A DNA stretch of 64,000 nucleotides from positions 1 through 64,000 of IMG/VR virus record IMGVR_UViG_3300009430_000001. One strand, given 5' to 3'. The translations under genes were made by a program, and so were the position numbers. Positions 33,631 through 56,643 of the stretch are shown piece after piece (positions within the stretch are counted from its first letter, which is position 1; every line of letters begins with the position of its first letter). The notes beneath the pieces are model-generated. The model made no database searches. It had not been told where the DNA came from and saw nothing but the letters and a program-made list of their open reading frames with translations. The stretch is from a virus.

Positions 33631-33655
33631 AAAAAGCCCAGCTTCAAAGCTGGGC
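33631..33655 (-). terminator. Hairpin/T-run directly before a start codon
   Basis: The minus strand has GCCCAGCTT-TG-AAGCTGGGC followed by TTTTT, abutting the ATG at 33626. Confidence 0.75.
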
Positions 33656-33680
33656 ATGAAGGTTGAAGAATGAATGAAGC

Positions 33681-34349
33681 TCACCAATCGTCGTCGCCGC
33701 CAGCAGCAGGAGCAGCGGCTGTTGGCGGTGCGGCGCCGTTGGTACTCATCGGCACGCCGGCTTGAGCCGGTGGAGTGACCGGAGCAGTGAATGGGTCGTT
33801 GCCGCCATTGCTGTACTGGTCCGGAAACCAGGACTCTTGCGCACTGGCGATGACTTTCGGGCTATCCGCGGGCTTGATGTGAAATCGCACCGAATACATG
33901 ATTTGCGGAGGAGCGTCTTTGTCATAAGTCACCTCGGCAATCGCATTCAGAACATTGTCGTCAGTGAGGAAGATGTTTGGATTACTGGTGAAGGTCTTGG
34001 CGATTGCCTTCTGAACCGAGGATTTGTCGATGATCCAGGCGACAGGGCGCTTCAGTTCACGACAATATGCGCGAACGAACCATACGCATTGCGGCTTATC
34101 TTTCTCGGTACTCTGGTACGCGTTGCCGATCTCGTTGATGTACTGCTCGAGCGGGGGTTCCGTTGGCGTGATCACGCAGCTCTTGTCTTTTCGGTAATAC
34201 CGATAGCACTTGCTGATCTGCGATGTGATGTACAGATTGTAACTCTGCCCGGGAGGGATCGTGGACATAATGAACATCCACGGGGGAATTCCCGAAAGAT
34301 CGTGCGTGAATTCAGCGGGGAGCAAATCGATCGCCGGGATCGGAGCCAT
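33681..34349 (-). CDS. Hypothetical protein with SSB-like acidic aromatic tip
   Basis: The 222-residue protein has a folded N-terminal ~165 residues (CYRYYRKDKSCVITPTEPPL, WFVRAYCRELKRPVAWIIDK). A Pro/Ala linker and an acidic tip GGDDDW follow, like the tails of SSB proteins. It could be a second replication or recombination mediator, but no OB-fold motif is clear. A TTG at 34391 overlapping the upstream stop is the alternative start. Confidence 0.6.
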   Translation of the reverse strand: MAPIPAIDLLPAEFTHDLSGIPPWMFIMSTIPPGQSYNLYITSQISKCYRYYRKDKSCVITPTEPPLEQYINEIGNAYQSTEKDKPQCVWFVRAYCRELKRPVAWIIDKSSVQKAIAKTFTSNPNIFLTDDNVLNAIAEVTYDKDAPPQIMYSVRFHIKPADSPKVIASAQESWFPDQYSNGGNDPFTAPVTPPAQAGVPMSTNGAAPPTAAAPAAGGDDDW

Positions 34350-34387
34350 AGGTTGTGGGGAGCGATTGGCGGGCCCAGGTCCGAGGC

Positions 34388-34597
34388 TCAACTCCGGGCG
34401 TCGTCTCCGGCCGGAACCAAGCTGCTCGAGGACCGAGCCGGCTCCAGTATAGCATCAACTGGAGTATATCGAAACCCCGAGCCGCTCGAGGCGAGGCGGG
34501 CATTTGCTGCAGCGATCTCTTCCTCGGTTGCGCTCTTCACGATATAGCCGGCGAGCGTTACTCCGCTGGGGATGCATGTCATCTGCCAACTGGCCAT
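34388..34597 (-). CDS. Small hypothetical protein
   Basis: The 69-residue product includes TLAGYIVKSATEEEIAAANARL. The TACCCTGG element 31 nt upstream supports the start. Its stop abuts the alternative TTG start of the next gene. Function unknown. Confidence 0.55.
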   Translation of the reverse strand: MASWQMTCIPSGVTLAGYIVKSATEEEIAAANARLASSGSGFRYTPVDAILEPARSSSSLVPAGDDARS

Positions 34598-34620
34598 GGG
34601 GTCTGAGGGTCGTGCGTTTT

Positions 34621-34628
34621 CCAGGGTA
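34621..34628 (-). promoter_or_regulatory. TACCCTGR start-proximal element
   Basis: TACCCTGG on the minus strand, 31 nt before the ATG at 34597. Confidence 0.5.
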
Positions 34629-34645
34629 GAAGCGCTGGCCTGGAC

Positions 34646-34675
34646 TGGACCTTAGGAGACACAGCCTGTAAAATG
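34646..34675 (+). promoter_or_regulatory. Candidate promoter of the AP2-HNH gene
   Basis: TGGACC, a 17-bp spacer and TAAAAT, about 60 nt before the ATG at 34734. The leader contains a GGACCCG/CGGGTCC stem. A moderate match to host sigma-70 promoters. Confidence 0.4.
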
Positions 34676-34733
34676 GGGAGGACCCGCGGCGCGTCAACGC
34701 TCGGGTCCCTGATCAACCTGGGGAAACAGGCCG

Positions 34734-35414
34734 ATGAGTCGAGAGTATCACATCCGCGGCGGCGTGAAGGTGCTGAAGCTGCCGCCGCTGGAGCGCGTGC
34801 AGGAGCTGCTCTACGAGGACCCGGAGCAGCCTGGGGTGCTGCGGTGGCGGGTGAGCAGAGGCTGCCAGCCCGCCGGCTCCGTGGCGGGCGGCCTTAATGG
34901 TGGTGGCCGTCGGCGGATCATGATTGATGGCGTTCTTTGTTACGCCTCGCGGTTGTTGTGGCTATTGCGCACGGGCGAGGATCCAGGGGCTGGGGTCATT
35001 GATCATGAGGATCGTGCGAGAGATAATGATCGCTTTGAAAATCTGAGGCTTGCGCCGAATGGCCAGAGCTCTAATACCGCGCACAGTGGCAGGCAGAGCA
35101 ATAATACAAGTGGCTATACGGGTGTGAGCTGGGACGATCGTTGTGGCAAGTGGCGCGTGAAACTTCAATACGAAAACAGGCGCATTCACTTGGGCTTTTT
35201 TCGCAACGTCAAAGATGCTTACGCTGTTTATCTTTGCGCAAAGTCAAAGTTTCACGGTGAAGAGTGGCTCGGCGAGCTTGCGCCTGGCTGGACACTCGAG
35301 CAAGCAAAGCAGCGCGTTATTGAAATGAAAAATGCTCGGTCCTGGGAGCTCCGGGATGAGATCTACAAGGCCGAGCGGCAGTTTGTCAAATGGTATAACC
35401 GGCTAAAACTCTAG
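34734..35414 (+). CDS. HNH homing endonuclease with AP2 DNA-binding domain
   Basis: The 226-residue free-standing homing endonuclease has an HNH-type core at residues ~85-110 (VIDHEDRARDNDRFENLRLA) and an AP2 domain at ~122-175 (SGYTGVSWDDRCGKWRVKL, IHLGFFRNVKDAYAVY). Such genes copy themselves into cognate sites. It is the only plus-strand gene between 31.1 and 49.8 kb and a 17-bp dispersed repeat begins directly after its stop, consistent with an insertion. Confidence 0.85.
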   Translation: MSREYHIRGGVKVLKLPPLERVQELLYEDPEQPGVLRWRVSRGCQPAGSVAGGLNGGGRRRIMIDGVLCYASRLLWLLRTGEDPGAGVIDHEDRARDNDRFENLRLAPNGQSSNTAHSGRQSNNTSGYTGVSWDDRCGKWRVKLQYENRRIHLGFFRNVKDAYAVYLCAKSKFHGEEWLGELAPGWTLEQAKQRVIEMKNARSWELRDEIYKAERQFVKWYNRLKL

Positions 35415-35431
35415 ACTTAGACACAATGCGG
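35415..35431 (+). repeat. 17-bp dispersed repeat, copy 1
   Basis: ACTTAGACACAATGCGG, starting at the base after the homing-endonuclease stop, between convergent genes. Confidence 0.75.
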
Positions 35432-35435
35432 GGCT

Positions 35436-35880: not shown

Positions 35881-36801
35881 TCAGAAGCCGGCGTCGTCAA
35901 GCACGGTGTCCGCGGTGGCATCCACGGTGGACAGCTGTTGTCCGGTGGTGTCGTAGTAAGCTTGCTCGCCTGCCACGGCAGCGGAACCAGCCGGCATCAG
36001 GCCATAGCCCTGGAACGCACGCTTGATGCGCTTGACTGTTTCCAGCAGCTCTTCGATCGTGCTGGGTCCGTTGTACCAGCTGTTGTCGGAGAGCTTCATC
36101 CAGCTTTTGCGATCAGGAGTGGGCACGGAGATCTCGAGGAATCGGGCGCGCTTGCCATTCCGCAGATCGATCCTGCACACGTCAAACAGCTGGCGGCTGT
36201 CGTCTTCCGACTGGCAGATCTCCGCCAGCGCGCCAAGGAAGCTGCGCACCGGGCCGGTGACGCCTGTGCTGCCATCGGGGCGATAGCTGACGGCATTGAA
36301 GTTCAGTTCGATGGCACGACCCTCGGTGTCGCTCATCAGGAAGCGCAGCCGATAGTTGAGCGCATAGGATGCATTCTCATCGGCGGGAGTCACCAGAAGA
36401 AGCATGTCCCGGGCAAATCCGATGATCTTGGATGTTCCGCTGTCTTCGTTGGTGGTTCCACCATCATCGGATACCGTGAAATTCACGGGCTTGTTTGCAG
36501 TCGCAGGTGTGACGGGCTGGAAAGGATTCTTGTACGCGCGGATCGGGGTGTGACCGACGACAGCTGCATCGTCCGGCGGCAGCTGGATCACCGCGGCTTC
36601 GGTCGGGGCCAGGGCGGAGGTCTCCTCGACTTGCTCGGCGACTTGCTCGGTGGCTTGCTCGACAGCTTGCTCAGCGACTTCGGGGATGCTCACGATCTCA
36701 GTTTGAACAGTGGTTTCAGTGGACGGCTCGAGCACTTCAGGGCTGAGTTTGGCGGGCTCGCGGGTACGGGTGGCGCGGGTACGGGTGGAATTCGTAGCCA
36801 T
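35881..36801 (-). CDS. Hypothetical DNA-metabolism-like protein with acidic tip
   Basis: The 306-residue protein has a Glu/Ala-repetitive N-terminus (residues ~35-60, repeated AEQ-V). A globular body carries GFARDMLLLVTPADE and GPVRSFLGALAEICQ; a similar VRSFLGALS motif occurs at 38429-39142. The C-terminus ends TVLDDAGF, acidic and aromatic like SSB tails. The start is ATG at 36801, after a long leader with hairpin and 17-bp repeat. No family recognised. Confidence 0.6.
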   Translation of the reverse strand: MATNSTRTRATRTREPAKLSPEVLEPSTETTVQTEIVSIPEVAEQAVEQATEQVAEQVEETSALAPTEAAVIQLPPDDAAVVGHTPIRAYKNPFQPVTPATANKPVNFTVSDDGGTTNEDSGTSKIIGFARDMLLLVTPADENASYALNYRLRFLMSDTEGRAIELNFNAVSYRPDGSTGVTGPVRSFLGALAEICQSEDDSRQLFDVCRIDLRNGKRARFLEISVPTPDRKSWMKLSDNSWYNGPSTIEELLETVKRIKRAFQGYGLMPAGSAAVAGEQAYYDTTGQQLSTVDATADTVLDDAGF

Positions 36802-36850
36802 TGGAAACAGATGAAGCAGATGAACGCGCTGCCTGTCACGCAGCACAAAG

Positions 36851-36877
36851 AAAAAAGGCCCCCGTGGAGGGAGCCTT
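36851..36877 (-). terminator. GC leader hairpin upstream of 35881-36801
   Basis: The minus strand has GGCTCCCTCCACGGGGGCC then TTTTTTC, 50 nt before the ATG. Confidence 0.75.
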
Positions 36878-36898
36878 TGAGTGGGAGGGAAAATCAAA

Positions 36899-36915
36899 AC
36901 TTAGACACAACGCGG
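36899..36915 (+). repeat. 17-bp dispersed repeat, copy 2
   Basis: ACTTAGACACAACGCGG, in the same intergenic space as the leader hairpin. Confidence 0.75.
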
Positions 36916-36925
36916 AGCGCAGGTC

Positions 36926-37543
36926 TCAGTCTTTGAATCTGTAGTGGTATGGCTTGTAGTGACTGGGATACATCGCATTGATGGGCCCGAGACGTGCATT
37001 CTGTGCCTCAAGCTGCTCGAGGTCACGGCATGCACGTTCCATGGCGCTGTCACTGTCGAGCTTGGCGAGTAGTGGCAAGCAGGGAATGTAGTGCGTTGCG
37101 CCTTGGAATTTCTTGTTGCCATGGCAAATGATCGTGATGCCGCTGGTCAGCGTGTGATAAGCGCCGGTGCGCATGATCAAGCCGCTAGGCATATGGATCA
37201 TGAACAGCGGTTTGCAGATGCGCGTATTGTGGCTGGCATCATCGGGAAAACCTTCAGGCTCAGGAAGCCGTGGGTCGTCATGTGCCACGAGCTCGATGCG
37301 ATAGTCGCGTTGAGCATTGAACTCATCGAGTGGATCGTAGAGATCGCCGCCCCAGCCGACAGCGATCTTGGTCATGTCGTTAGTGTCAAGCTGTTGCTTG
37401 AGGTCTTGCCGGCGATCTAGTTCGATCGCAATGCGACCGAGGAAGTCGCGGTGGTTGTTGGGGAGTCGGGGTTCGATGTAGCTGTTGAGCATGAACTGCT
37501 TGGTTTTCTTGTCGGTGATACGTGATCCACGGACGTTGTTCAC
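36926..37543 (-). CDS. Hypothetical protein
   Basis: The product is 205 residues from a GTG in a GTGA overlap, with an AGGAGG ribosome-binding site 5 nt away. It contains KIAVGWGGDLYDPLDEFN and LFMIHMPSGLIMRTGAYH and ends aromatic-basic (YPSHYKPYHYRFKD). The same GTGA coupling links it to the next upstream gene. Function unknown. Confidence 0.65.
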   Translation of the reverse strand: MNNVRGSRITDKKTKQFMLNSYIEPRLPNNHRDFLGRIAIELDRRQDLKQQLDTNDMTKIAVGWGGDLYDPLDEFNAQRDYRIELVAHDDPRLPEPEGFPDDASHNTRICKPLFMIHMPSGLIMRTGAYHTLTSGITIICHGNKKFQGATHYIPCLPLLAKLDSDSAMERACRDLEQLEAQNARLGPINAMYPSHYKPYHYRFKD

Positions 37544-38088
37544 GTTTCCTCCTGCTTCTTGCGGTCTTCGCTCTCTTGGTGCTTCCATGTGCCCCACTTC
37601 TCGATGTACTCTGTGGCGGTTGGCACGCGCTTCAGCTTGTGCACTTTGCGCCACTGCTCTTCAGTGGTGTCATGGAACTTGGCAGGGCCGCTGATTTCGT
37701 AAAGCTCGAGATCGAGGGTATCTATGCCTGCTTGAATCATCTGCGTCCACGTATTTGTGGGAGTCCAGGCTTGATCGTCTTCGCTCAGGTTGCGTTGCTG
37801 TATCTTGAGCTCTTCGACGTAACCCGTGCGAAGCACGGCCAAGGCCGCTCGCATAATGACGTGAATAACTAGCGCTGGCTGATGTCTGCTGATGCACTCA
37901 CGATAGGTGAAGTTTGTATAATTAAGTTTGTTCTCACAGCGTCTGATTATCGTGATCAGCTCTTTCACTGTGATGATGTCGTGGCGCCAGGCCACGTGCA
38001 GCAGTGCGTTGGCAACGTCTTGGTGAAGCTCAAGCAAATTGTTGTGGGCTTTGCCGTTTTTTTCAATCAGTCGGTTGTAGATGCTCAT
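37540..38088 (-). CDS. Hypothetical helical protein
   Basis: The 182-residue, mostly helical product includes DVANALLHVAWRHDIITVKE and ITIIRRCENKLNYTNFTYRE. It has lower GC than average. First of a coupled pair with 36926-37543. No family recognised. Confidence 0.6.
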   Translation of the reverse strand: MSIYNRLIEKNGKAHNNLLELHQDVANALLHVAWRHDIITVKELITIIRRCENKLNYTNFTYRECISRHQPALVIHVIMRAALAVLRTGYVEELKIQQRNLSEDDQAWTPTNTWTQMIQAGIDTLDLELYEISGPAKFHDTTEEQWRKVHKLKRVPTATEYIEKWGTWKHQESEDRKKQEET

Positions 38089-38117
38089 GTTGCCTCTTGT
38101 GGTTGAAGTGAATCCAG

Positions 38118-38432
38118 TTATTGATTGGCAGGTTCTTGGAGGATGTCAAACAGGCTGGCCCAGCCTTCAACAGAACCGCCATGGTTATTAATTACCTCTT
38201 TGGCCCTGGAGTTGAGTGGATCTATTTGCTGAACCATGAGGAAGTTGATTCCAGTTTGAGCGATTGCTATTTGACGGGCGTATTCGCTTTTACTGCGTGA
38301 CTTGCGCATGGCAAGACTTGTAACTGTTGCTAGTGTGCAATCGACAAGATAGACGAATGCATGCTCGGTCGTGGTAAATTTTTTGGTGCGAAAGATGTTT
38401 TGATCTTTCTCGGATTTGGTGGCTTTTTTCAT
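38118..38432 (-). CDS. Hypothetical protein
   Basis: The 104-residue product has a basic N-terminus (KKATKSEKDQNIFRTKKF) and a helical core (SLAMRKSRSKSEYARQIAIA). An AGGAGG site precedes the ATG, and the ATG overlaps the upstream stop (ATGA). Function unknown. Confidence 0.6.
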   Translation of the reverse strand: MKKATKSEKDQNIFRTKKFTTTEHAFVYLVDCTLATVTSLAMRKSRSKSEYARQIAIAQTGINFLMVQQIDPLNSRAKEVINNHGGSVEGWASLFDILQEPANQ

Positions 38433-39142
38433 GCTGCCTCCTGTAGTTGAATGAGTTTCTGGTCGAGTTGTCGTTTCCTGCTGCCGTGGGCGGGGAACGC
38501 GATAATCACATGGGGTGGACGCTTCCAGCACAGGCGACAGCCGACACATTGCGGCGCACGTGGATCAGGTGCCAGCCTGGAGTGGGGGCACAGCACAGCG
38601 CGGTTGCCGCCGGCTGTGGTCCACGCCGTGCGCTTCTCGCCGGAAGGCACGATCAGGACGGCGTGCAAGCCGATCGCCACCGCGGCATCAGCCTGGGCCT
38701 CGAGCTCGAAGCTGAGGTTGATCGTGATCCGATGGCCCAGCAGCGCATCGAGGTGCGCCGGCTCATGTCGCCACTCCCGCCTGTGGGAGTACATGAAGGC
38801 GGGGCGCTTGCCCACGGCTGCGGACAGGGCGCCGAGGAAGCTGCGCACCTGGCCTGGCGTCTCCCCGGGGACGTCCCCTGCGACACCATATCGCAATGGT
38901 GTTGTGGGCGGAAGACGAAAACGGACCCAGTCGATCATTTGGTCGAACTGCATCACGTCTTTGCCGATGCCGGCGCTGTAGTTGTCCCAGTGCCATGCCA
39001 TGTAGCCCTGGTCGTGATAGCAGGTGCCATCATTCAATGGACAATCGCTGGGGCATGTGTTGCGGCTGGCGGTGATGGCAGCGATTGGGCCCAGCTTGTC
39101 GTTGTTGGTGGGGTACTTGCAGTGGAAGAAGTATTTGGTCAT
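38429..39142 (-). CDS. Cysteine-rich hypothetical phage protein
   Basis: The 237-residue protein has a clustered-cysteine segment near the N-terminus (NTCPSDCPLNDGTCYHDQGY) and another near the C-terminus (CPHSRLAPDPRAPQCVGCRLC). It may be a metal- or Fe-S-binding protein of the phage families with a CPxxCP/GCY pattern. A PGQVRSFLGALS motif recalls 35881-36801. The start is the ATG of MTKYFFHCKYP. Confidence 0.6.
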   Translation of the reverse strand: MTKYFFHCKYPTNNDKLGPIAAITASRNTCPSDCPLNDGTCYHDQGYMAWHWDNYSAGIGKDVMQFDQMIDWVRFRLPPTTPLRYGVAGDVPGETPGQVRSFLGALSAAVGKRPAFMYSHRREWRHEPAHLDALLGHRITINLSFELEAQADAAVAIGLHAVLIVPSGEKRTAWTTAGGNRAVLCPHSRLAPDPRAPQCVGCRLCWKRPPHVIIAFPAHGSRKRQLDQKLIQLQEAA

Positions 39143-39149
39143 GGTTTGA

Positions 39150-39383
39150 TCAGTATTCACCAGGAAACAGCACAATCTCGACTGGATAGCGGATCTCGCC
39201 TTTGTCATTGATCTCCACATCGTAGGGATCGCCAACGACGAATTCGCTTGGCTTGAGTCCAGCTCGAAAGAGCTTCTGCTCAACATCACGCATGATGCTG
39301 TGCCAGTCGGGTTCGGGATTCCAGTATTCCGGCGGCTCACTTGGTCGTGGGTCGCGGAACTGGCGGGGGTCGGTGGTAGCCAT
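39150..39383 (-). CDS. Small acidic hypothetical protein
   Basis: The 77-residue product is proline-rich at the N-terminus (RDPRPSEPPEYWNPEPDW) with a beta-like C-terminus (VGDPYDVEINDKGEIRYPVE). It lies 7 nt upstream of the cysteine-rich gene. Function unknown. Confidence 0.55.
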   Translation of the reverse strand: MATTDPRQFRDPRPSEPPEYWNPEPDWHSIMRDVEQKLFRAGLKPSEFVVGDPYDVEINDKGEIRYPVEIVLFPGEY

Positions 39384-39462
39384 GGAAGTGATGGAAAGTG
39401 GGTGGGGACTTATATGCCGTCAGAGCGCTTACAGTTGGCCAGCGACGGCAATGCCCCGGGGA

Positions 39463-40443
39463 TCAGGCCTTGATGCCGGCGAGTTCGCGGCAGAAGTCGC
39501 GAGCGACTTCGATGCGGCCCTTGTTGACTCCGAATAGCACGCGGCTGAACTTCTTGATGGCGTTCTGGCCGCTGGGGCTGGTCAGCACCTCAGTGACGGC
39601 ATTGAAGCCGTGCCAGGCGGTGCCGCGGACTCCAGGGATGTCGGTGCCGAGGCCGGTGGTCAGCGCTTCGACCATCGGGTTCCAGTCCCTCAGGTCCTCG
39701 AGCGTCTTGGCACGCACCGGCTTGCCGTCAGCCATGATCGGCCGGGCCAGCTCGGGGGCGTAGACGCGCTTGAGCATTTCGCGGAAGGCCTCGGTGTTCA
39801 TCCTTGTTTCCGCGAACAGGTGGTAGTCCTGGACTTCGTCGTTGAAGGACTCCGTGGCGACATTGATGCTCTTGATCAGTCGCGTGATGTCGCTGTTGAC
39901 ACCTTTGCGGTGGGCCAGGCTGCGCTGGTTCTCGCTGCACATTGCAACTTGTAAAGTATTGCAACAAACCACACGCGTATCGGTGTAGAGAGTGCCGACG
40001 CCAGTCTTGCCATCGTGGCCGAGGTAGCCGACGATGTAGCGCTCGATCTTGTCGTTGGCGAGTACGTTGTCTTCCAGGCCTTTGATCAGGCCAGTGAAGG
40101 CGACCTTGCGGCCTTCGTCGAGCACGACGAAAGTGTCGAGGATGATGTGGTCTTGAATGGCTTCAGCCATCTCGACCAGGCGCTCATTCTGCGCGACCTC
40201 GTACTCATGCCCGGCAACGCCGAGCAGTTCGCCGGTGGTGCCGTGGATCAGGGCGCAGCGGTTGGCTTCGTGGGTCTGGTCGTCCCAGTTGTAGAACAGG
40301 GGCTTCTTGATGACTTCGTAGTTGGCTTTGGCCATCTCGTAAGCCTGGCGGGGTGTGATGGTGATGTCATTGATGCAGAGCTCTTCGCCGTGCCAGGAGC
40401 GAATGCCGCGATTGGTGATTCCGGATTGGAAGTAGCTACCCAT
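39463..40443 (-). CDS. DUF932 phage/plasmid-like protein
   Basis: The 326-residue protein matches the DUF932 family layout: an N-terminal WHGEELCI, then HEYEVAQNERLVEMAEAI, KVAFTGLIKGL, DTRVVCCNTLQVAM and a helical C-terminus with TAWHGFNAVTEVL. The family is widespread in phages and plasmids, often near replication or defence genes, with no established biochemical role. A leader hairpin lies ~60 nt upstream. Confidence 0.83.
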   Translation of the reverse strand: MGSYFQSGITNRGIRSWHGEELCINDITITPRQAYEMAKANYEVIKKPLFYNWDDQTHEANRCALIHGTTGELLGVAGHEYEVAQNERLVEMAEAIQDHIILDTFVVLDEGRKVAFTGLIKGLEDNVLANDKIERYIVGYLGHDGKTGVGTLYTDTRVVCCNTLQVAMCSENQRSLAHRKGVNSDITRLIKSINVATESFNDEVQDYHLFAETRMNTEAFREMLKRVYAPELARPIMADGKPVRAKTLEDLRDWNPMVEALTTGLGTDIPGVRGTAWHGFNAVTEVLTSPSGQNAIKKFSRVLFGVNKGRIEVARDFCRELAGIKA

Positions 40444-40500
40444 TTTCAGGAAGAATGCAGGTTTGGAAGGGGGTGGTGAATGCCCGTGTGGGCAATGAAG

Positions 40501-40526
40501 AAAGGCCCCCGCATGATGCGAGGGCT
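40501..40526 (-). terminator. GC leader hairpin upstream of the DUF932 gene
   Basis: The minus strand has GCCCTCGCATCATGCGGGGGC then CTTTCTTC, 57 nt before the ATG at 40443. Confidence 0.7.
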
Positions 40527-40557
40527 AGGAATCAGCGCAGCATCAGCTGCATGACAT

Positions 40558-41102: not shown

Positions 41103-41128
41103 GGGTCTCATGGCGAAGGACGCAGAAC

Positions 41129-41156
41129 AAAGGCCCCCGTGGAGGGACCACGGGAG
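41129..41156 (-). terminator. GC leader hairpin upstream of 40818-41102
   Basis: A perfect 7-bp stem CCCGTGG/CCACGGG plus the shared GGTCCCTCCACGGGGGCC then TTTGTTC. It is followed by GCGTCCTTC and the ATG. Confidence 0.75.
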
Positions 41157-47829: not shown

Positions 47830-47857
47830 GGGTGTCCATGAGAGGGGACACAGAACG

Positions 47858-47878
47858 AAGGCCCCCGTGGAGGGGGCC
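47858..47878 (-). terminator. GC leader hairpin upstream of 47437-47829
   Basis: The minus strand has GGCCCCCTCCACGGGGGCC then TTCGTTCTGTGTCCCC, between the stop at 47901 and the GTG. Confidence 0.75.
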
Positions 47879-47900
47879 ATGGAGCGGAGGGGCTTGCTGG

Positions 47901-48449
47901 TTACCACCAGCCGTGGTATTTGAAGGAGATCCATTTCTTGGCCTCTTCCGGGAGCTCAAGCCAAGGCTTGAGCTGGTTGACGGTGTCTCGGAGATCACTC
48001 CAGTACCAGTCGCCCATATCGGCAGGGCCGAAGAAGAAGCCGGAGCTTAGCGGGAGTTCCTGCATAGCCGTTTCTTCGTTGCGGCTTTTGAGCAGCTGTT
48101 CGCATAGCTTGACAAGTTCTGCGAGTTTGTCGAATGTGACTTCGATTTCCTCGCAGTTCTCGAGGCCGTCGGGGCCTTTCAGCCTGTCAAACCAGCGATG
48201 GATCTGGTTTGCTTTGCGCCAGTAGGCGCAGTCGAGTTGGATGCTGAGAACGCCCGGGACATCGAACAGTCCGAAGACCTGATTGGTCGATGTTTTGAGT
48301 TTGAGTGTTCCCAGAACGTAGGTGCGGAGTTCGCTCCACGCCTTGGTGGTGGGGTTCTTCGCTTCTTCGCGAAGAGCATCGTGATCGGGAAGAGTGATAG
48401 ACGCCTTGAGGTACTGATCGAGTCCCATTGGTTGGTGAGTGAAGGACAT
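47901..48449 (-). CDS. Conserved hypothetical phage protein (MGLDxYL family)
   Basis: The 182-residue product has MGLDQYL near the N-terminus, AYWRKANQIHRWFDR, ENCEEIEVTFDKLAELVKLC and SSGFFFGPADMGDWYWSDLRDTV. I recognise this as a widespread uncharacterised phage protein pattern. ATG at 48428 (MGLDQYL) is an equally good start. Confidence 0.7.
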   Translation of the reverse strand: MSFTHQPMGLDQYLKASITLPDHDALREEAKNPTTKAWSELRTYVLGTLKLKTSTNQVFGLFDVPGVLSIQLDCAYWRKANQIHRWFDRLKGPDGLENCEEIEVTFDKLAELVKLCEQLLKSRNEETAMQELPLSSGFFFGPADMGDWYWSDLRDTVNQLKPWLELPEEAKKWISFKYHGWW

Positions 48450-48455
48450 GAAAAC

Positions 48456-48484
48456 GAGGACCCCGCCTGATGGCGAGGGCTCGT
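48456..48484 (-). terminator. Hairpin upstream of 47901-48449
   Basis: The minus strand has CGAGCCCTCGCCATCAGGCG then GGGTCCTCG and TTTTC, followed by ATGTCCTTC and the start. Confidence 0.65.
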
Positions 48485-48500
48485 GGTGGGCATAAGCCCG

Positions 48501-48517
48501 ACTTAGACACAATGCGG
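48501..48517 (+). repeat. 17-bp dispersed repeat, copy 4
   Basis: ACTTAGACACAATGCGG, between the stop at 48546 and the hairpin at 48456-48484. Confidence 0.75.
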
Positions 48518-48713: not shown

Positions 48714-48744
48714 GGAGTGTTCCATGAAGTGGGCAGCAAACCGA

Positions 48745-48763
48745 GGCCCCCGTGGAGGGGACC
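48745..48763 (-). terminator. GC leader hairpin upstream of 48546-48713
   Basis: The minus strand has GGTCCCCTCCACGGGGGCC then TCGGTTTGCTGCCCAC and the start. Confidence 0.7.
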
Positions 48764-48774
48764 AGAGGCTGGGG

Positions 48775-49242: not shown

Positions 49243-49268
49243 GGTCAGATGGAAGGGCAATGAGCCAA

Positions 49269-49286
49269 GGCCCCCGGGGAGGGGCC
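49269..49286 (-). terminator. GC leader hairpin upstream of 48775-49242
   Basis: The minus strand has GGCCCCTCCCCGGGGGCC then TTGGCTCATTGCCCTTCC and the ATG. Confidence 0.7.
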
Positions 49287-49302
49287 AATGGGGGCAATGA
49301 TT

Positions 49303-49767: not shown

Positions 49768-49789
49768 TGCGAAATCAGCAGAACACATG

Positions 49790-49813
49790 AAAAAGGCCCC
49801 CGCGGAGGGGGCC
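49790..49813 (-). terminator. GC leader hairpin upstream of 49303-49767
   Basis: The minus strand has GGCCCCCTCCGCGGGGGCC then TTTTTCATGTG and the start ~23 nt later. Confidence 0.75.
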
Positions 49814-49828
49814 ATGGAGTCGGAGGGT

Positions 49829-51031: not shown

Positions 51032-51561
51032 ATGGTCCCGTTGGGGTAGAAGATGTTGCTCTCGCTTGCAGTGGGGAACACCCTTGCCAGGTGATCAGCA
51101 CCGATCACCAGTGATTCTGGGTGTTGAAACCTGCTTGCGAAGTCAAGGTAGACGTAAACGGCTTGCAACGGGAAGCCGGGAATGGAAGGAGCTGACTCGA
51201 GGCCAAGCTCGGCCTCGATCTGGGCTTGACGCATGCCAGGCCGACTGACGTTGCCGGTGGCCTGAAGGACTTGGCTGACTCGTCGTTGCAGGTGGTAGGC
51301 GTAGACGAGGATCTCGTCTGCAATTGCTGCGATGGTGGCGTAGTCAGCCTTGATTGAGGCGAAGTATGCCTCTTCTGCGTCGCTCAGTTCGTCGTCTTCT
51401 GGCTGGGTGTGAGCAAGGAGCTCAGGCCAGCCGAAGGGGCCACCTTCTCCTTCAGGAAGAGTGAAGTGGCTCTCGGTATGCGCTGTGCGCAGAAATTCTG
51501 CTGCGCCTTGGGGGTTGATGTGAGCGAGGTCGAGGAAATGCGTACGGTTGAAGGGGGCCAT
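51028..51561 (-). CDS. Hypothetical protein, MAPFxRTxxL family
   Basis: The 177-residue paralogue of 49303-49767 (see shared PF-RT and LPEG motifs). It also has DDELSDAEEAYFASIKADYA and a YVYLDFASRF motif, and ends IFYPNGTI. Its stop codon overlaps that of the convergent virion-type gene. A degenerate leader hairpin precedes it. Confidence 0.65.
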   Translation of the reverse strand: MAPFNRTHFLDLAHINPQGAAEFLRTAHTESHFTLPEGEGGPFGWPELLAHTQPEDDELSDAEEAYFASIKADYATIAAIADEILVYAYHLQRRVSQVLQATGNVSRPGMRQAQIEAELGLESAPSIPGFPLQAVYVYLDFASRFQHPESLVIGADHLARVFPTASESNIFYPNGTI

Positions 51562-51588
51562 GGAGAAGATGCAACAGCATCGAACAAA

Positions 51589-51604
51589 GGCCCCCGAGGA
51601 GGGC
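51589..51604 (-). terminator. Degenerate GC leader hairpin upstream of 51028-51561
   Basis: The minus strand has TGCCCTCCTCGGGGGCC then TTTGTTC. A weaker stem than the others, but the flanking TTTGTTC and position are kept. Confidence 0.5.
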
Positions 51605-51617
51605 AAGGGAGCGTGTG

Positions 51618-51625
51618 TACTCTGT
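51618..51625 (+). promoter_or_regulatory. Variant TACTCTG start-proximal element
   Basis: TACTCTGT, 31 nt before the ATG at 51649. Confidence 0.35.
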
Positions 51626-51648
51626 GGGACAGCAGATGAGGGACCGCA

Positions 51649-51849
51649 ATGATTGGCAGGCTTGCTGTGGGAGCATTGCTTGGCGCTGCAGGCGGTGGCC
51701 TGCTGGGGACGATCCCGGGAGTGCTGGCGCAGAACAATGTCGGAATTGATTTGGGCCCAATGGGCGCCTGGGGCTATAGCTTGGATCCCGTTAGCGGAAA
51801 TGTAGTGTACACCGGCAGAGGGCCGGGTGGATTCAGTGAGCTCACTTAA
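51649..51849 (+). CDS. Small membrane protein
   Basis: The 66-residue product has an N-terminal hydrophobic Gly/Ala segment (VGALLGAAGGGLLGTIPGVL, residues ~7-26) and a polar tail. Possible virion membrane peptide or signal-like anchor. First gene of a three-gene plus island. Confidence 0.6.
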   Translation: MIGRLAVGALLGAAGGGLLGTIPGVLAQNNVGIDLGPMGAWGYSLDPVSGNVVYTGRGPGGFSELT

Positions 51850-51855
51850 TCGACA

Positions 51856-52074
51856 GTGCCGGGATTTCATCCAACCGTAGGCGCCTTGTCTGGCGCTTTG
51901 GTTGGCGCGATGGCCTTGGCAGCGCTTGAGATAATTGATCAGGCTTATGACAAAGAGGGTTGGGATGCGGCGAAGCAGCGGGTTGATGAATTCATCAATA
52001 ATCTGCATCGCCAGAGGGCTGAGCGCCAAGGGGCTGAACGGCCTAGGCGGATGATCCGCATTCAGCAGGCTTGA
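51856..52074 (+). CDS. Small protein with hydrophobic N-terminal segment
   Basis: The product is 72 residues from a GTG, with a hydrophobic stretch at ~8-26 (VGALSGALVGAMALAALEII) then a charged helix rich in Arg/Gln. It resembles the preceding gene product in layout. Probably virion-associated. Confidence 0.55.
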   Translation: MPGFHPTVGALSGALVGAMALAALEIIDQAYDKEGWDAAKQRVDEFINNLHRQRAERQGAERPRRMIRIQQA

Positions 52075-52075
52075 G

Positions 52076-52083
52076 TACCCTGG
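52076..52083 (+). promoter_or_regulatory. TACCCTGR start-proximal element
   Basis: TACCCTGG, 29 nt before the ATG at 52105, directly after the upstream stop. Confidence 0.6.
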
Positions 52084-52104
52084 GGGCACAGGCTTCTTCT
52101 TTCC

Positions 52105-52716
52105 ATGGCAGTCAAGAGATACGCCGGTAGTAGCAATGTCGTGGATGACATCTTGGCGGCTGTTGGCGACAATGCATATACTAGGGCGTGGAGTGACGCC
52201 ATGGGAAATGCGATACGGCCTGTGGATAGAATGATTGCTTCTGACTCTGATCGGTTTGCGTCTTCCTTGAAAGAAATGGAAGGGCTGATTAACCGTGGAG
52301 TCGAGGAAGCGAAAGGGCAGGGGTTATCGCAGGCTGCAGGGGAGCAGCTGCTTGCAAGGTTGAATCGGCTTGATCCTAGCGGTGCTCTCGCTGAAAACAT
52401 GGGAGCTGGGCTGAGTCAGGCAGTGGAAAGAGCAAAGCGGAATGGGTCTTCGGTGGGGAGTGAATTTGCGGGTTTGGTATTTGATGCTCGAGAAGATCTG
52501 AAACCGGAGTTGATCGATGCGTATCTGAAGCAGCATCCGCCCTCTGATGTTCACATGATGACCAAGGCGGGCGGATTGCTTCATGCAGCAGCAGGCATGG
52601 CGCCTTCTGCGTATGGCATCCCGGCTGCGGGAGCAGGTCTTGCTGCGTGGGGCCTGCATGATTATCTGCAGGCCCAGCAGCAGGCGGAGAAGGAGTCTCA
52701 GCTTCCAATGAGCTGA
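52105..52716 (+). CDS. Virion-type helical protein
   Basis: The 203-residue product begins MAVKRYAGSSN, an opening shared in style with 57688 (MPITRFAGEK) and 62748 (MAVTRLAGKA). The body is helical with a C-terminal hydrophobic Gly/Ala segment (GMAPSAYGIPAAGAGLAAWG). The TACCCTGG element supports late expression. Function inferred only from style and context. Confidence 0.6.
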   Translation: MAVKRYAGSSNVVDDILAAVGDNAYTRAWSDAMGNAIRPVDRMIASDSDRFASSLKEMEGLINRGVEEAKGQGLSQAAGEQLLARLNRLDPSGALAENMGAGLSQAVERAKRNGSSVGSEFAGLVFDAREDLKPELIDAYLKQHPPSDVHMMTKAGGLLHAAAGMAPSAYGIPAAGAGLAAWGLHDYLQAQQQAEKESQLPMS

Positions 52717-52720
52717 GGGC

Positions 52721-53038
52721 TTAGCAGTGATTGAGCTCTTCTGCGAGGAGCTGGTTGTCCAGTAAGGCTGCCTGGATCTCGTCGGGAGACATGTTGTCAG
52801 CTCCTCTACTGCGGTTGAGATCAGCGGCTTCGGGAATGATGTTACTCCAGTCGTCGGTGAGCTCGGGGCAGTTGTGTTGGCTGATGACGTGAGAAAGATC
52901 TCGCTGCTCCCAGAATTCTTTGATTTCATGGGGGTCATCGAGTTCTTCAGGCGTAACAGCCAGCATGTCGGAGAAGTCTCCTCCGTAGGGCTCGGCTCGA
53001 CTGTCGAGGTATGAGGTGAGATTGAATGGTAGGTTCAT
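52721..53038 (-). CDS. Small acidic hypothetical protein
   Basis: The 105-residue acidic product includes GGDFSDMLAVTPEELDDPHE and NRSRGADNMSPDEIQAALLD. A TTG at 53047 overlapping the upstream stop is an alternative start. Function unknown. Confidence 0.6.
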   Translation of the reverse strand: MNLPFNLTSYLDSRAEPYGGDFSDMLAVTPEELDDPHEIKEFWEQRDLSHVISQHNCPELTDDWSNIIPEAADLNRSRGADNMSPDEIQAALLDNQLLAEELNHC

Positions 53039-53043
53039 CGTGG

Positions 53044-53931
53044 TCAAGAGGAGAAGAAGGCTGTTATGTTGTAAGTCGTGGTGTTGGTGATTATTCTTGC
53101 CAAGGTGACGGCATTAGAGTTGGTGAATTTTGTTGATTGTTTTTGATGTGGTTTTAGCAACAGGGTGTTGACATCTAGGGCGTCTTCGAGCAAGAGCTGG
53201 GGAAAGAAGCCGTGGAGTGGGTTGTTGATGTATTTTCTGTGCCATTGAATGGACTTGCGGGGAGCAGCTAAAGATGATATAGCTAAAGAATTGTCTTTGA
53301 ATTCGTTTAGGATGTTTTGGTAGTCTGCGACAAGATGTCTGTTGGTGATTTCCTTTGAAGAAATAAATGCTATTTCTTCGTCTTCCAGTTGGGTGATAAG
53401 TCGCTTTCTGCCTTCGATCCTCTGGGTTAGAGGTGAGCTGATGATGCCAAGTGAGGCAAATGCCAAAATGCCCGTTGCAGCATCGCCCAAGAAGGCTGGA
53501 AAGTCGTATTGCTTTGCTCTTTTAAGTCGGCTTTCTTTGATTCGTAGTTCGTTGTAGTAGATTTCGTTGAAGCGGGTGATTTTGGTTAAAATGGAATGAG
53601 CGTCTTTGGCAATGCGCTGATTCTTGAGGATTTTACGTTCAAGATTTGCATGTAGTGATCCCGGCTGTATGATGTCATATAGCCGGGTTTGTCCTGATGG
53701 TTTTTGATAGACCTGGGCAAATAGGTGATCACCTGCCCTGTATTGACAGAACAGGTCAGCAGCCTCTGATCGATGTTGTGACCGTCTGTCGAAGCAGGTG
53801 ATTTCAGTTGGTGGTCCGTTTTCAGGGATGAGGGTCAGGCGCCTGCCAAGTCGGAATGGGATGACTTCAGCGACGGCGCCACTGATGAGTCTGGTAGTAG
53901 CGAAAATGTTTGGATTTTGAAAAGTAGTCAT
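53044..53931 (-). CDS. Hypothetical AT-rich protein with a membrane-like segment
   Basis: The 295-residue product has a noticeably lower GC content than its neighbours. A helical, Lys/Arg-rich middle (LERKILKNQRIAKDAHSILT) is followed by a hydrophobic stretch (GDAATGILAFASLGIISSPL) and Asn/Thr-rich end. It looks like a transferred gene. No family recognised. Confidence 0.6.
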   Translation of the reverse strand: MTTFQNPNIFATTRLISGAVAEVIPFRLGRRLTLIPENGPPTEITCFDRRSQHRSEAADLFCQYRAGDHLFAQVYQKPSGQTRLYDIIQPGSLHANLERKILKNQRIAKDAHSILTKITRFNEIYYNELRIKESRLKRAKQYDFPAFLGDAATGILAFASLGIISSPLTQRIEGRKRLITQLEDEEIAFISSKEITNRHLVADYQNILNEFKDNSLAISSLAAPRKSIQWHRKYINNPLHGFFPQLLLEDALDVNTLLLKPHQKQSTKFTNSNAVTLARIITNTTTYNITAFFSS

Positions 53932-53982
53932 GTTGGCGATGGGGTGAAAGATTGAGCGAGCGTCAGCGAGCTGGCGCTAATG

Positions 53983-54014
53983 AAAAAAACCACCCCGTAG
54001 TGGGGTGGCTTTTG
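53983..54014 (-). terminator. Bidirectional-looking terminator
   Basis: A perfect CCACCCC-GTAG-TGGGGTGG-type stem flanked by seven A on one side and four T on the other. It ends the 54034-54444 gene and precedes 53044-53931. Confidence 0.85.
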
Positions 54015-54033
54015 AGTCATGAAGGCTCTGGAC

Positions 54034-54444
54034 TCACTTGGCGCGACGCAGCGCGTTCCCTTCCGGGTAGCGTTTGTCAGCCAGATGGTCCGAGAAGGCG
54101 TAAACGCCAATGCCAGACCGCTGAACGGTCTTGTTCTCCTCGTCTCGGGTGACGACGCCGAGACTTAGTCCGCAGCCGTTTTCAACGGGAGACTCGAACG
54201 AGATGAACAGAGGGCCTGCCTCGTGAAAGACGCCGTCGGCGTTCTCGAGGGTGATGCGGGCGTCCTTACGGGCAGCCGCAGCGGACTCCTTGCGGCACTC
54301 GGGAGAACCAGCAACGGGAGCACTGGCGGACTCCTTCTTGGAGTCCTGGGGCGCCGAGCCATTGCCATTACTGGCGGGGCCTTCGACCTTCCTTTCGGTG
54401 GTCTCGGCACTGGTCTCGACGGTTTGGGTGGCGGCTTCAGCCAT
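54034..54444 (-). CDS. Hypothetical protein with disordered N-terminus
   Basis: The 136-residue product has a Ser/Glu/Ala-rich N-terminal ~65 residues (TVETSAETTERKVEGPASNG). A small beta-rich domain follows (FHEAGPLFISFESPVENGCG, SGIGVYAFSDHLAD). Function unknown. It sits between two hairpins. Confidence 0.6.
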   Translation of the reverse strand: MAEAATQTVETSAETTERKVEGPASNGNGSAPQDSKKESASAPVAGSPECRKESAAAARKDARITLENADGVFHEAGPLFISFESPVENGCGLSLGVVTRDEENKTVQRSGIGVYAFSDHLADKRYPEGNALRRAK

Positions 54445-54497
54445 GATGGATGAACTTGGGATTGTGTGGTGCCCATCTCCACTGAGGGCATAAAAAC

Positions 54498-54519
54498 AAG
54501 GCCCCCGTGGAGGGGCCTT
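54498..54519 (-). terminator. GC leader hairpin upstream of 54034-54444
   Basis: The minus strand has AAGGCCCCTCCACGGGGGCCTT then GTTTTTATGCCCTC. Confidence 0.8.
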
Positions 54520-54534
54520 TGGATGAGGAGGGGA

Positions 54535-54693
54535 TCAGCGCATGACGCGCTGAATGACTGGAGACGGCACTGGCCGGTCTAGTTGACCGAATGTGCCGTA
54601 TGCGGAGCGGAGCTCGCGCCATTGCACGATGGTCATGCAGATGACCATACCTGCAATGGTGACGCAGGCATGAGGGGTGTAATCGCGATTCAT
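54535..54693 (-). CDS. 52-residue membrane protein
   Basis: The frame reads MNRDYTPHACVTIAGMVICM then TIVQWRELRSAYG and ends VIQRVMR. The N-terminal half is one hydrophobic span. It fits exactly between two hairpins, which supports it despite its size. Possible small membrane modulator of the host. Confidence 0.55.
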   Translation of the reverse strand: MNRDYTPHACVTIAGMVICMTIVQWRELRSAYGTFGQLDRPVPSPVIQRVMR

Positions 54694-54718
54694 GGTGAAT
54701 CACGCGAAGGGCATAAAA

Positions 54719-54746
54719 GGAAGGCCCCCGATTACTCGAGGGCCTT
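54719..54746 (-). terminator. GC leader hairpin upstream of 54535-54693
   Basis: AAGGCCC/GGGCCTT stem with a 12-nt loop. The minus strand continues CCTTTTATGCCCTTCG and the start. Confidence 0.7.
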
Positions 54747-54750
54747 GAGG

Positions 54751-54924
54751 TTAGATATTGGAATTGATGGCGATCAATTCTTCGCATTCTTGATGAATGC
54801 GATCAAGGATTTCCATAAGATCTGGATCTTGATCCATCTCCCATGCAATCCAGAAATGATTGCGGGAATCCTGTTCAAAGGATTCAAGGGCGGCCTGAGC
54901 GGCCTCGGAGTATGGAGCATCCAT
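54751..54924 (-). CDS. 57-residue acidic helical protein
   Basis: The product begins MDAPYSEAAQAALESFEQDS and contains NHFWIAWEMDQDPDLMEILD, then IHQECEELIAINSNI. The ATG overlaps the upstream stop (TGATG), so it is coupled to 54924-55127. Function unknown. Confidence 0.55.
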   Translation of the reverse strand: MDAPYSEAAQAALESFEQDSRNHFWIAWEMDQDPDLMEILDRIHQECEELIAINSNI

Positions 54925-55127
54925 CAGAGGAGCTCCAGGACGATTTCATCTATGGCGTCCTGAAGGGAGGCGCCAGCCTTCATGCGGGAATCGACATCCC
55001 GAGCCACGTGGCCCAGGTTGTCATAGCCCATCATGAAGACGGATGAAAGAGGCTGATACGCCTCAATGGCCAGCGCGATGCGCTGGAGATGGAGCGGCGC
55101 GGCGCTCCAGGAAGGATTGAGAGCCAT
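54924..55127 (-). CDS. Small hypothetical protein
   Basis: The 67-residue product includes HLQRIALAIEAYQPLSSVFM and SRMKAGASLQDAIDEIVLEL. Preceded by a leader hairpin. Function unknown. Confidence 0.55.
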   Translation of the reverse strand: MALNPSWSAAPLHLQRIALAIEAYQPLSSVFMMGYDNLGHVARDVDSRMKAGASLQDAIDEIVLELL

Positions 55128-55151
55128 GGCTCTATTGAAGGACACTGATGA

Positions 55152-55173
55152 AAGGCCCCCGTGGAGGGGCCTT
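55152..55173 (-). terminator. GC leader hairpin upstream of 54924-55127
   Basis: The minus strand has AAGGCCCCTCCACGGGGGCCTT then TCATCAGTGTCCTTC and the ATG. Confidence 0.8.
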
Positions 55174-55179
55174 GTGGGG

Positions 55180-55416
55180 CTAGCCGTAGTTGGCTGGGAG
55201 TTCAACGTCTTTGGCGAGGATCTCGTGGAAGAGATCGTCGGCCTGAGGTGTGAACTCAGTGCCTTCACGGCGTTGATCGAGCACTTGCTCGAAGGTGAGT
55301 GGGGAGTCGCACGGCATGAGTGGTGCCGTGCGGATGATGGGAACGTCCCACATGTCGTGGAGCGATCCCATGGAGTCCTCCATGGTGTAGGAGGACATGA
55401 AGAATTGAGCTTGCAT
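55180..55416 (-). CDS. Small hypothetical protein
   Basis: The 78-residue product is methionine-rich at the N-terminus (QAQFFMSSYTMEDSMGSLHD), then SPLTFEQVLDQRREG and an acidic helix. Flanked by hairpins on both sides. Function unknown. Confidence 0.55.
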   Translation of the reverse strand: MQAQFFMSSYTMEDSMGSLHDMWDVPIIRTAPLMPCDSPLTFEQVLDQRREGTEFTPQADDLFHEILAKDVELPANYG

Positions 55417-55443
55417 GATGCTGCGCTCGAGGGACAGTAAACA

Positions 55444-55466
55444 AAGCCCCCCGTGGAGGGGGCCTT
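55444..55466 (-). terminator. GC leader hairpin upstream of 55180-55416
   Basis: The minus strand has AAGGCCCCCTCCACGGGGGG then CTT and TGTTTACTGTCCCTC. Confidence 0.8.
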
Positions 55467-55478
55467 GTGGCGATGGAG

Positions 55479-55652
55479 CTACTCGAGCTCTGCAAGCCAC
55501 ATGGATTCCATGTGATGGCCAATGAGCATTGCCGCAGCATAGTCAGGGTCTGTGCTGGGCGGAATGTCAGTGTTGTGGCGAAGTCTTGCACGCTCGATTG
55601 CTTGATTGAGTGAGTTGATCATCCATGAGTGATCAACGAGTGAGATTGTCAT
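55479..55652 (-). CDS. 57-residue helical protein
   Basis: The product includes SLVDHSWMINSLNQAIERAR and DPDYAAAMLIGHHMESMWLA. It follows a leader hairpin by ~28 nt. Function unknown. Confidence 0.5.
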   Translation of the reverse strand: MTISLVDHSWMINSLNQAIERARLRHNTDIPPSTDPDYAAAMLIGHHMESMWLAELE

Positions 55653-55680
55653 TGCTGATGCAATTGAAGGACACTGATTA

Positions 55681-55698
55681 AAGGCCCCCGCGGAGGCC
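55681..55698 (-). terminator. Short GC leader hairpin upstream of 55479-55652
   Basis: The minus strand has GGCCTCCGCGGGGGCC then TTTAATCAGTGTCCTTC and the start. Confidence 0.6.
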
Positions 55699-56301
55699 AA
55701 TGCCGGCTCCAGAGAGGGTTTGCCGGCCAACTCCTGCGCCTGAAATTGCCTCCAGGGGGCAAAGTGTAATGACCGGGGGTAATTGTGAGACTGCTTGCTA
55801 TACTAGCCGTCGCAGTTTGATATACCCCCGGGGTGTAAGTGTGGGACTTCCGCATTGTGTCTAAGTCTAGCCAAAGCGAAAGATCCCTGTGGTACCAACG
55901 GGTCTGGGGCCTGTGGGTATAGCTGAATAGCTGGATGCATGGCTGTATGTCGACATGCGCCGCTGGTCGCGGCAGCAGTCGTATTGAATGTGGAGATGGG
56001 CTGATGGATGGGTGAGATCCCTTGCAGCGACTGGGATCTCGAGGAATATGCGCCCGGTGCCGCACCGTCTGGGCGGTATGCGGCGGGGCTTATGAAGGCT
56101 TACGTGCGTTTGCTGTAGATGTGCACAGGGGGGCACTAGCAGCCGAGGTAGCACGTGACGCTTATGAGGACGCATGCACGTGAGCTGCAGATGCACACGG
56201 GGGCATTGGCAGCTGATGATGCGCATGGAGCTGATGCAGCATTGGTATGCTGATGATTCATTTGCTTTCATGCGAGCGGAAGCGAGCATGGGGAGCAAAT
56301 G
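55699..56301. other. Region without a confident gene
   Basis: About 600 bp. It holds copy 5 of the 17-bp repeat, an extended -10-like TGCTATACT (plus strand, near 55795) and an imperfect repeat of the form GCAGATG-CACA-GGGGGCA at about 56114 and 56180. A minus-strand frame of 68 codons (55649-55855) starts at the ATG inside the 17-bp repeat and reads through the hairpin to overlap the next start; I do not consider it established. Confidence 0.5.
55850..55866 (-). repeat. 17-bp dispersed repeat, copy 5 (inverted)
   Basis: CCGCATTGTGTCTAAGT on the plus strand, the only copy in this orientation. Confidence 0.75.
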
Positions 56302-56306
56302 AAAAA

Positions 56307-56326
56307 AGAGTCCCCGTAGGGACTCT
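56307..56326 (-). terminator. Terminator after 56333-56596
   Basis: AGAGTCCC-TACG-GGGACTCT followed by TTTTT on the minus strand, 7 nt after the stop. Confidence 0.85.
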
Positions 56327-56332
56327 GGTGCA

Positions 56333-56596
56333 CTACTTGGCGTAGATGCAGACGCGGGCATTGCCCGCCTTAGATTTGATGACCTTTCCGAAGGCGTCAG
56401 GCGCCTCCTCGTCTGGCCCGAAGCCAGACAGGACGTGCACGCCGATGAGGGAAGCCAAGAACTCTTCGGCCTTGACTTCAGACCCGAGGGCCTGAGCAAG
56501 CCTGGCCTTGAACTTCTTGGTGAAGCCCAAGTTACCAAGCCAAAGTACGTCCTTGGTGTCGGTGGAGGCGTTGGCCTGAGTGGTGGCGTTAGCCAT
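56333..56596 (-). CDS. Small hypothetical protein
   Basis: The 87-residue product includes DVLWLGNLGFTKKFKARLAQ, KAEEFLASLIGVHVLSGFGP and a basic end (KVIKSKAGNARVCIYAK). Possible nucleic-acid binder. It is flanked by a leader hairpin and a strong terminator, forming its own unit. Confidence 0.6.
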   Translation of the reverse strand: MANATTQANASTDTKDVLWLGNLGFTKKFKARLAQALGSEVKAEEFLASLIGVHVLSGFGPDEEAPDAFGKVIKSKAGNARVCIYAK

Positions 56597-56627
56597 GTGT
56601 CGCTACTGCGAACTACAGCAATCAAAG

Positions 56628-56643
56628 GTCCCCGTGGAGGGAC
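56628..56643 (-). terminator. GC leader hairpin upstream of 56333-56596
   Basis: The minus strand has GTCCCTCCACGGGGAC then CTTTGATTGCTGTAGTTCG and the ATG. Confidence 0.65.

Follow-up and report, generated by a model that had tools for sequence, protein, structure and literature searches.

Phage morons are units of promoter, open reading frame (ORF) and terminator that occur as single insertions with sigma-70-type promoters, and the T7-type RNase III sites found before genes are longer duplexes than the hairpins described below. In cluster K mycobacteriophages a short asymmetric repeat, SAS, lies immediately before the start codons of numerous small genes from different families (PMC3203893). 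It has the 13-bp consensus GGGATAGGAGCCC and mostly one orientation, and about half of the copies have an inverted repeat directly upstream (ESAS, two 17-bp arms), the consensus of which differs by subcluster; SAS is conserved while the genes differ, and its function is unproven (PMC3203893). Here we describe a repeated element, the leader, in the first 64,000 bases (hereafter the window) of the IMG/VR virus record IMGVR_UViG_3300009430_000001, a phage record of 96,597 bases (G0). Leaders stand directly before many small minus-strand genes, and we propose that they are probably terminator-start junctions that make of this region a row of mostly one-gene, exchangeable cassettes. All results derive from sequence, with gene calls of our own. 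The literature we searched, from which subscription papers were mostly absent, held no description of such an element.

A covariance model (CM) built from the leader copies of G0 and of its two closest relatives, G1 and G2, finds exactly 15 copies in the complete record; every one is on the minus strand, within 36,840-56,648, and E-values range from 5e-12 to 1e-4 (Table 1). A preliminary description of this DNA had counted about 15 copies of a hairpin with a T-rich tract and a block resembling TTnATGYCCTTC after it; that count is borne out, and each of the 12 genes it named is led by a copy, the three further copies preceding the genes that start at 36801, 40443 and 48428 or 48449. The span it had given, 33631-56643, was slightly too wide, and the hairpins at 33655 and 35854, which have plain T-runs and no block, are ordinary terminators and not leaders. 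Every leader is composite: a GC-rich hairpin (P1, stems of 6-11 bp) is followed by a U-rich tract, a short start block and the start codon. With positions counted from the hairpin's final base, T is almost fixed at +6 and TG stands at +10/+11, followed by YCC, in a block of consensus TTNNNTNNNTGYCCTTC. The TG is found in 14 of the 15 G0 copies and in 8 of 9 in G1 and G2, that is, in 22 of 24 over the three phages, a figure matched by none of 20,000 shuffles. The start codon lies at +27 to +32 in 12 of the 15 G0 leaders and at +56 to +61 in the other three, and hairpin, TG and start codon are hence mutually locked in register. Furthermore, the U.G pairs of the stem occur in one orientation only (12 U.G cells), which fits an RNA of the coding strand and not double-stranded DNA. 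The TG itself was considered as the true start codon, but its frame agrees with the downstream gene in some copies only; nor did the copies share a reading frame or a peptide that would point to a conserved leader peptide. No match above the gathering threshold was obtained in the window with the 4227 families of Rfam, and the best sub-threshold matches look like chance.

By its sequence the phage of this record is S-EIV1-like. The large terminase subunit (TerL) of G1 and G2 matches that of Synechococcus phage S-EIV1 (KJ410740) at 48%, and the G0 TerL has 57-60% identity to those of G1 and G2 and 44% to that of S-EIV1. G1 (38.9 kb) and G2 (90.2 kb), probably freshwater phages, come from one metagenome and were found by scanning IMG/VR with a relaxed leader pattern; they are collinear with G0 and carry 5 and 7 full leaders, respectively. 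A TerL search yielded more distant relatives (TerL identity 45-47%), and many relatives are fragments of uncultured viruses. Several of the distant ones have arrays laid out as in G0, with unrelated hairpin sequences (stems of 7-14 bp) and a longer block, TGYCC..TTCAACAGTGCA, of consensus TTTTTTANTGYCC..TTCAACAGTGCATTT. At E<0.1, copies number 13 in G024, 11 in G022, 9 each in G019 and G025, 8 in G023, 7 in G018 and 3 in G021, and within each of these genomes all share one strand; searched with a hidden Markov model (HMM), reversed control sequence taken from other loci gave zero matches. The geometry is that of G0: TG stands at +9/+10 in 36 of 43 distant-relative copies, the first start codon following at +24 to +37 or at +42 to +60, and the block of the preliminary description, TTTATGTCCTTC, is present unchanged in G024 (5571). 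Layout and block are conserved in relatives, the block with or without the hairpin. In G0 the array is the head of a gene cluster that runs on, on the same strand, into exonuclease and primase-like genes, with TerL on the opposite strand; this order and strand are kept in G2, G022, G024 and G025. No match was returned when cellular genomes were searched with an exact pattern of the G0-type leader, or viral contigs with its strict form, and single matches of the distant relatives' block in two further contigs (L146 and L147) are probably due to chance. S-EIV1, a cultured relative, has other repeats in the same place: its small-gene region (L105, 4800-10900, minus strand) contains CTGATCCGTCAAAGCGGGT.. 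and AACCCTGGGCRTCCATA..GTCCCAGG in two copies each and a GTCCTGAGTATGACNTTAAA-like repeat in three. These intergenic repeats had no match in Rfam.

Comparison of the distant relatives shows that hairpin and block are separable. Where a co-directional gene ends just before a copy, P1 is found in 42 of 48 cases, and where none does, in 3 of 17 (Fisher p=3e-7); several of the six exceptions among the 48 carry a shorter hairpin, and the first copy of most arrays, which has no gene before it, consists of the block alone. In addition, the longest T-run is at least 5 in 39 of 49 of these copies, as in the U-runs of ordinary terminators. The simplest reading of this pattern would assign the hairpin to the end of one gene and the block to the start of the gene after it, which supports the terminator with a compact start signal that was among the four interpretations offered at the outset. 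That leaders are nothing but intrinsic terminators, their downstream likeness being a by-product of recent intergenic duplication, is very improbable. Many copies do score as terminators (40 terminator-like sites were found where 17.9 are expected) and the hairpins of G0 are near-identical in sequence, but the block keeps its register at 45-60% TerL identity next to very different hairpins, and persists where there is no hairpin. We propose instead that P1 and the U-tract would by origin be the 3′ end of the preceding gene, either an intrinsic terminator or a hairpin that protects the 3′ end, and that the register-locked block (TGYCC..., extended in relatives to TTCAACAGTGCA and partly P2-forming, see below) would be the start signal of the following gene, acting as a promoter and/or as the 5′ end of the mRNA. 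Joined, these parts would divide the front of the replication-side gene cluster into consecutive expression cassettes, most of them holding one gene. The hairpin of G0, G1 and G2 seems to have turned into a fixed part of the junction, with poor U-tracts.

We lean towards the block being, or containing, a transcription start, maybe with a phage factor, because the strong terminators of the relatives would otherwise silence the genes downstream. The 38-57.5 kb region holds 8 promoter-like sigma-70 -35/-10 sites where 7.8 are expected, none of them in a minus-strand leader. N4-type hairpin promoters were also considered, and no RNA polymerase of that type was found among the proteins scanned. The phage does encode a sigma factor (phrog_351, window 18187-19485, minus strand), related to those of other cyanophages and 42% identical to that of G2 and to part of the S-LBS1 factor, which could read the start block or the second repeated element described below. 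In the relatives, GATGTTAA was considered as a general promoter, but it shows no genome-wide enrichment and precedes only the first copy of several arrays. A different role, in which the pyrimidine-rich block and the hairpin place the ribosome at the start codon, appears unlikely to us. It would account for the mostly fixed distance to the start codon, and none of the 15 leader genes has a Shine-Dalgarno core (GGAG, GAGG or AGGA, 4-20 nt before the start). Such cores are nevertheless rare genome-wide (5 of 29 other minus-strand genes and 5 of 32 plus-strand genes, with 8% expected by chance), so that their scarcity, correctly noted earlier, is not special to leader genes, and genes outside the array manage without a block. 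Moreover, the second class of start codons, 20-30 nt further off, makes a purely translational role less likely.

The TGYMC of the block is able to pair with a downstream GKRCA-like segment, forming a second stem, P2. A pairing test anchored on the TG was positive but modest in three sets (p=0.023, 0.0225 and 0.001), and among 63 copies of the distant relatives the native arms outpair permuted ones (z=3.25; p=0.003 within genomes). Perfect stems vary by genome (TGCAC/GTGCA in G023, TGTAC/GTACA in G025, TGCACTA/TAGTGCA in G018), as expected for covariation, yet many copies pair poorly. P2 is therefore a probable stem but not a universal one: as a universal second stem it was rejected for G0, where the mean folding z is only -1.0 (-0.26 in G1 and G2). 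The inverted repeat can alternatively be a protein-binding site in DNA. We hold as a tentative possibility that the P2-bearing block is a lineage-specific start signal read by a phage factor, such as the sigma factor it encodes or an RNA-binding protein, and serves S-EIV1-like cyanophages as a common socket for changing early genes. If so, any ORF landing between junctions would be expressed at once under shared control, and the early genes plugged in would probably include host-takeover and counter-defence genes.

Units between leaders are small and variable. Of 80 units, 43 consist of one gene ending no more than ~80 nt from the next leader, with a median protein of 114 amino acids (aa), and only 32 of 92 units have relatives in any other array. 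Pfam gave no match for any of the ten larger proteins tried from the array region. As the preliminary description had it, leaders are more alike than the genes they precede: they have relatives in other arrays, and almost all array proteins tried lack them. Within G0, the minus-strand genes 49303-49767 and 51028-51561, both leader-led, encode paralogues (29% identity, E=1e-12, starting MTAPF/MAPF), and represent a duplicated cassette. Comparison of G1 and G2 reveals two exchanges. In the first, G1 has two leaders around a 60-aa gene where G2 has a single leader, and the flanking alignments overlap by 38 nt on G2 (6306-6343), which is the leader. In the second, unrelated genes (85 and 128 aa) occupy the interval between two conserved leaders; similarity ends a little beyond one leader, at G2 7572, and returns at 7833 near the stop codon, ~20 nt before the next. 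This is the pattern that recombination between direct repeats would give, and the cassette idea is supported by these two events at leaders, the gain or loss of one gene and the replacement of another. Since the junctions have nearly the same sequence, homologous recombination from junction to junction could add, remove or replace a gene while leaving its neighbours undisturbed. The mobile module envisaged earlier is hence supported as a means of adding and swapping genes, and is not supported as a self-moving element, as repeats and homologous recombination suffice. We regard it as improbable in the extreme that leaders are attC-like sites at which a phage recombinase inserts cassettes. One gene per unit and exchanges ending at leaders would suit such sites, but homologous recombination between ~38-nt repeats accounts for the junctions, and a search that was not exhaustive identified neither a fixed crossover point nor a dedicated recombinase.

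A second repeated element, TTGTGTCTAAG, occurs in 7 exact copies in the genome, four of which share the 16-mer GCATTGTGTCTAAGTC; three copies lie ~20-35 nt before leaders 11, 13 and 15. It is a candidate phage promoter or other signal, and was not found in G1 or G2. A search of viral contigs with GCATTGTGTCTAAGTC gave six stretches, below our chance estimate, and was uninformative.

Several observations weigh against the junction reading. U-tracts of G0 are mostly weak, with a T-run of at least 5 in 3 of 15 leaders and in 0 of 10 in G1 and G2, so that part of the transcription probably continues past them. For at least four leaders of G0 (1, 2, 7 and 8) no co-directional gene in need of termination is obvious, and the same holds for a hairpin at G2 7300, ~600 nt past a strong terminator. 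If TTGTGTCTAAG were a promoter, strong termination at leaders 11, 13 and 15, just downstream of it, would be self-defeating. The block is unlike any known promoter or Shine-Dalgarno sequence, and both exchanges come from a single pair of relatives. Finally, the HMM of the distant relatives fails to detect the G0 leaders directly, and a common origin of the two sets rests on layout, the TGYCC core of the block and synteny. Some of these points would suit a processing or stability element, which we consider possible but doubtful: an enzyme such as RNase E would cut a long early read-through transcript within the U-rich gap, leaving P1 to guard the upstream mRNA at its 3′ end and P2, or else the block, to mark the 5′ end of the downstream mRNA. 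Weak U-tracts in G0, TTGTGTCTAAG elements just upstream of three leaders and P2 pairing in excess of chance all agree with it, and such cleavage would yield the same mRNA ends as the junctions. Against it, the block also stands without a hairpin where no gene precedes, and the U-runs of the relatives are those of ordinary terminators. Leaders may also be attenuators, another of the earlier interpretations, with which the weak G0 U-tracts are compatible, as are hairpins before genes that have no co-directional gene upstream.

Table 1. Leaders of G0 and copies of the second repeated element (window positions unless marked otherwise).
Feature	Position (strand)	Gene led	CM score (bits)	Remarks
Leader 1	56610..56648 (-)	56333-56596 (87 aa)	37.6	start codon at +31
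Leader 2	55666..55702 (-)	55479-55652 (57 aa)	31.5	~600 nt past terminator 56326-56307
Leader 3	55429..55467 (-)	55180-55416 (78 aa)	47.1	
Leader 4	55137..55175 (-)	54924-55127 (67 aa) and 54751-54924 (57 aa)	46.3	
Leader 5	54706..54747 (-)	54535-54693 (52 aa)	35.6	other hairpin arms, same block
Leader 6	54483..54521 (-)	54034-54444 (136 aa)	47.0	protein related to leader-led genes in G1 and G2
Leader 7	51572..51616 (-)	51028-51561 (177 aa)	33.2	divergent plus-strand ORF from 51649
Leader 8	49778..49816 (-)	49303-49767 (154 aa)	43.3	upstream neighbour ORF 49853-51031 on plus strand
Leader 9	49252..49290 (-)	48775-49242 (155 aa)	45.6	
Leader 10	48728..48766 (-)	48546-48713 (55 aa)	41.0	
Leader 11	48441..48486 (-)	47901-48428 or 48449	23.4	other hairpin arms, same block
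Leader 12	47843..47881 (-)	47437-47829 (130 aa)	46.9	GTG start
Leader 13	41115..41153 (-)	40818-41102	43.8	
Leader 14	40487..40529 (-)	39463-40443 (326 aa)	28.2	phrog_1221
Leader 15	36840..36878 (-)	35881-36801 (306 aa)	43.0	relative in G2
TTGTGTCTAAG copies	35425 (-), 36909 (-), 41191 (-), 48511 (-), 57937 (-), 55856 (+); genome 76708 (-)			
GCATTGTGTCTAAGTC	48500..48515 (-)			~20-35 nt upstream of leader 11
Element copy	41180-41195 (-)			before leader 13
Element copy	~36898-36913 (-)			before leader 15

Some further features of this phage were recorded. Between the strong terminator at 56326-56307 and leader 2, ~600 nt (~55720-56300) hold no recognised gene; a region of similar length occupies the same place in G2 (6680-7290), and the gap is possibly an origin or a control region of the array. 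Two ORFs, at 34734-35414 (plus strand) and 46735-47433 (minus strand), have, judged by eye, the look of HNH-type homing endonucleases; the second, which has no Pfam match, resembles an ORF adjoining TerL in G2 (33%). Two group I introns (Rfam RF00028; L007:12886-13113 and L007:13910-14194, genome ~76.9-78.2 kb, plus strand) lie within or next to a conserved structural gene that is probably the one for the major capsid protein and whose homologue is also split in G2 and intact in G1. A 6.5-kb contig from another metagenome (IMGVR_UViG_3300037307_000351) encodes a TerL identical to that of G0, and its sequence points to a second occurrence of this phage or of a very close one.

In a lineage of picocyanobacterial viruses, the sequence of the leader is enough to mark the accessory gene array, and is a handle for finding array genes that are mostly orphans. 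It also offers a case in which the gain and swapping of small phage genes without breaking expression becomes directly testable. Among known systems, the leader has in common with intrinsic terminators a GC stem of 6-14 pairs and, behind it, a U-tract, with T-runs of 5-6 in the relatives; unlike them, it has a register-locked conserved block past the U-tract, and its U-tracts are weak in G0, G1 and G2. T7-type RNase III sites likewise place hairpins in short gaps before start codons of the early region, but leader stems are only ~7 bp. Like morons, cassettes contain one gene each, have signals of their own and vary among close relatives; they differ from morons in standing up to 15 in a row with one conserved junction and no recognised promoter. 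The closest known analogue is SAS/ESAS, an analogy by which we claim no membership and imply no relation in sequence. In both, a repeat adjoins the start codons of numerous small genes that are unrelated, and the inverted repeat upstream of it varies by lineage. In contrast to SAS, the block of the leader is pyrimidine-rich and has no Shine-Dalgarno-like core, TTNNNTNNNTGYCCTTC differing from GGGATAGGAGCCC, and its hairpin resembles a terminator, has a U-tract after it and, in the relatives, depends on the gene upstream.

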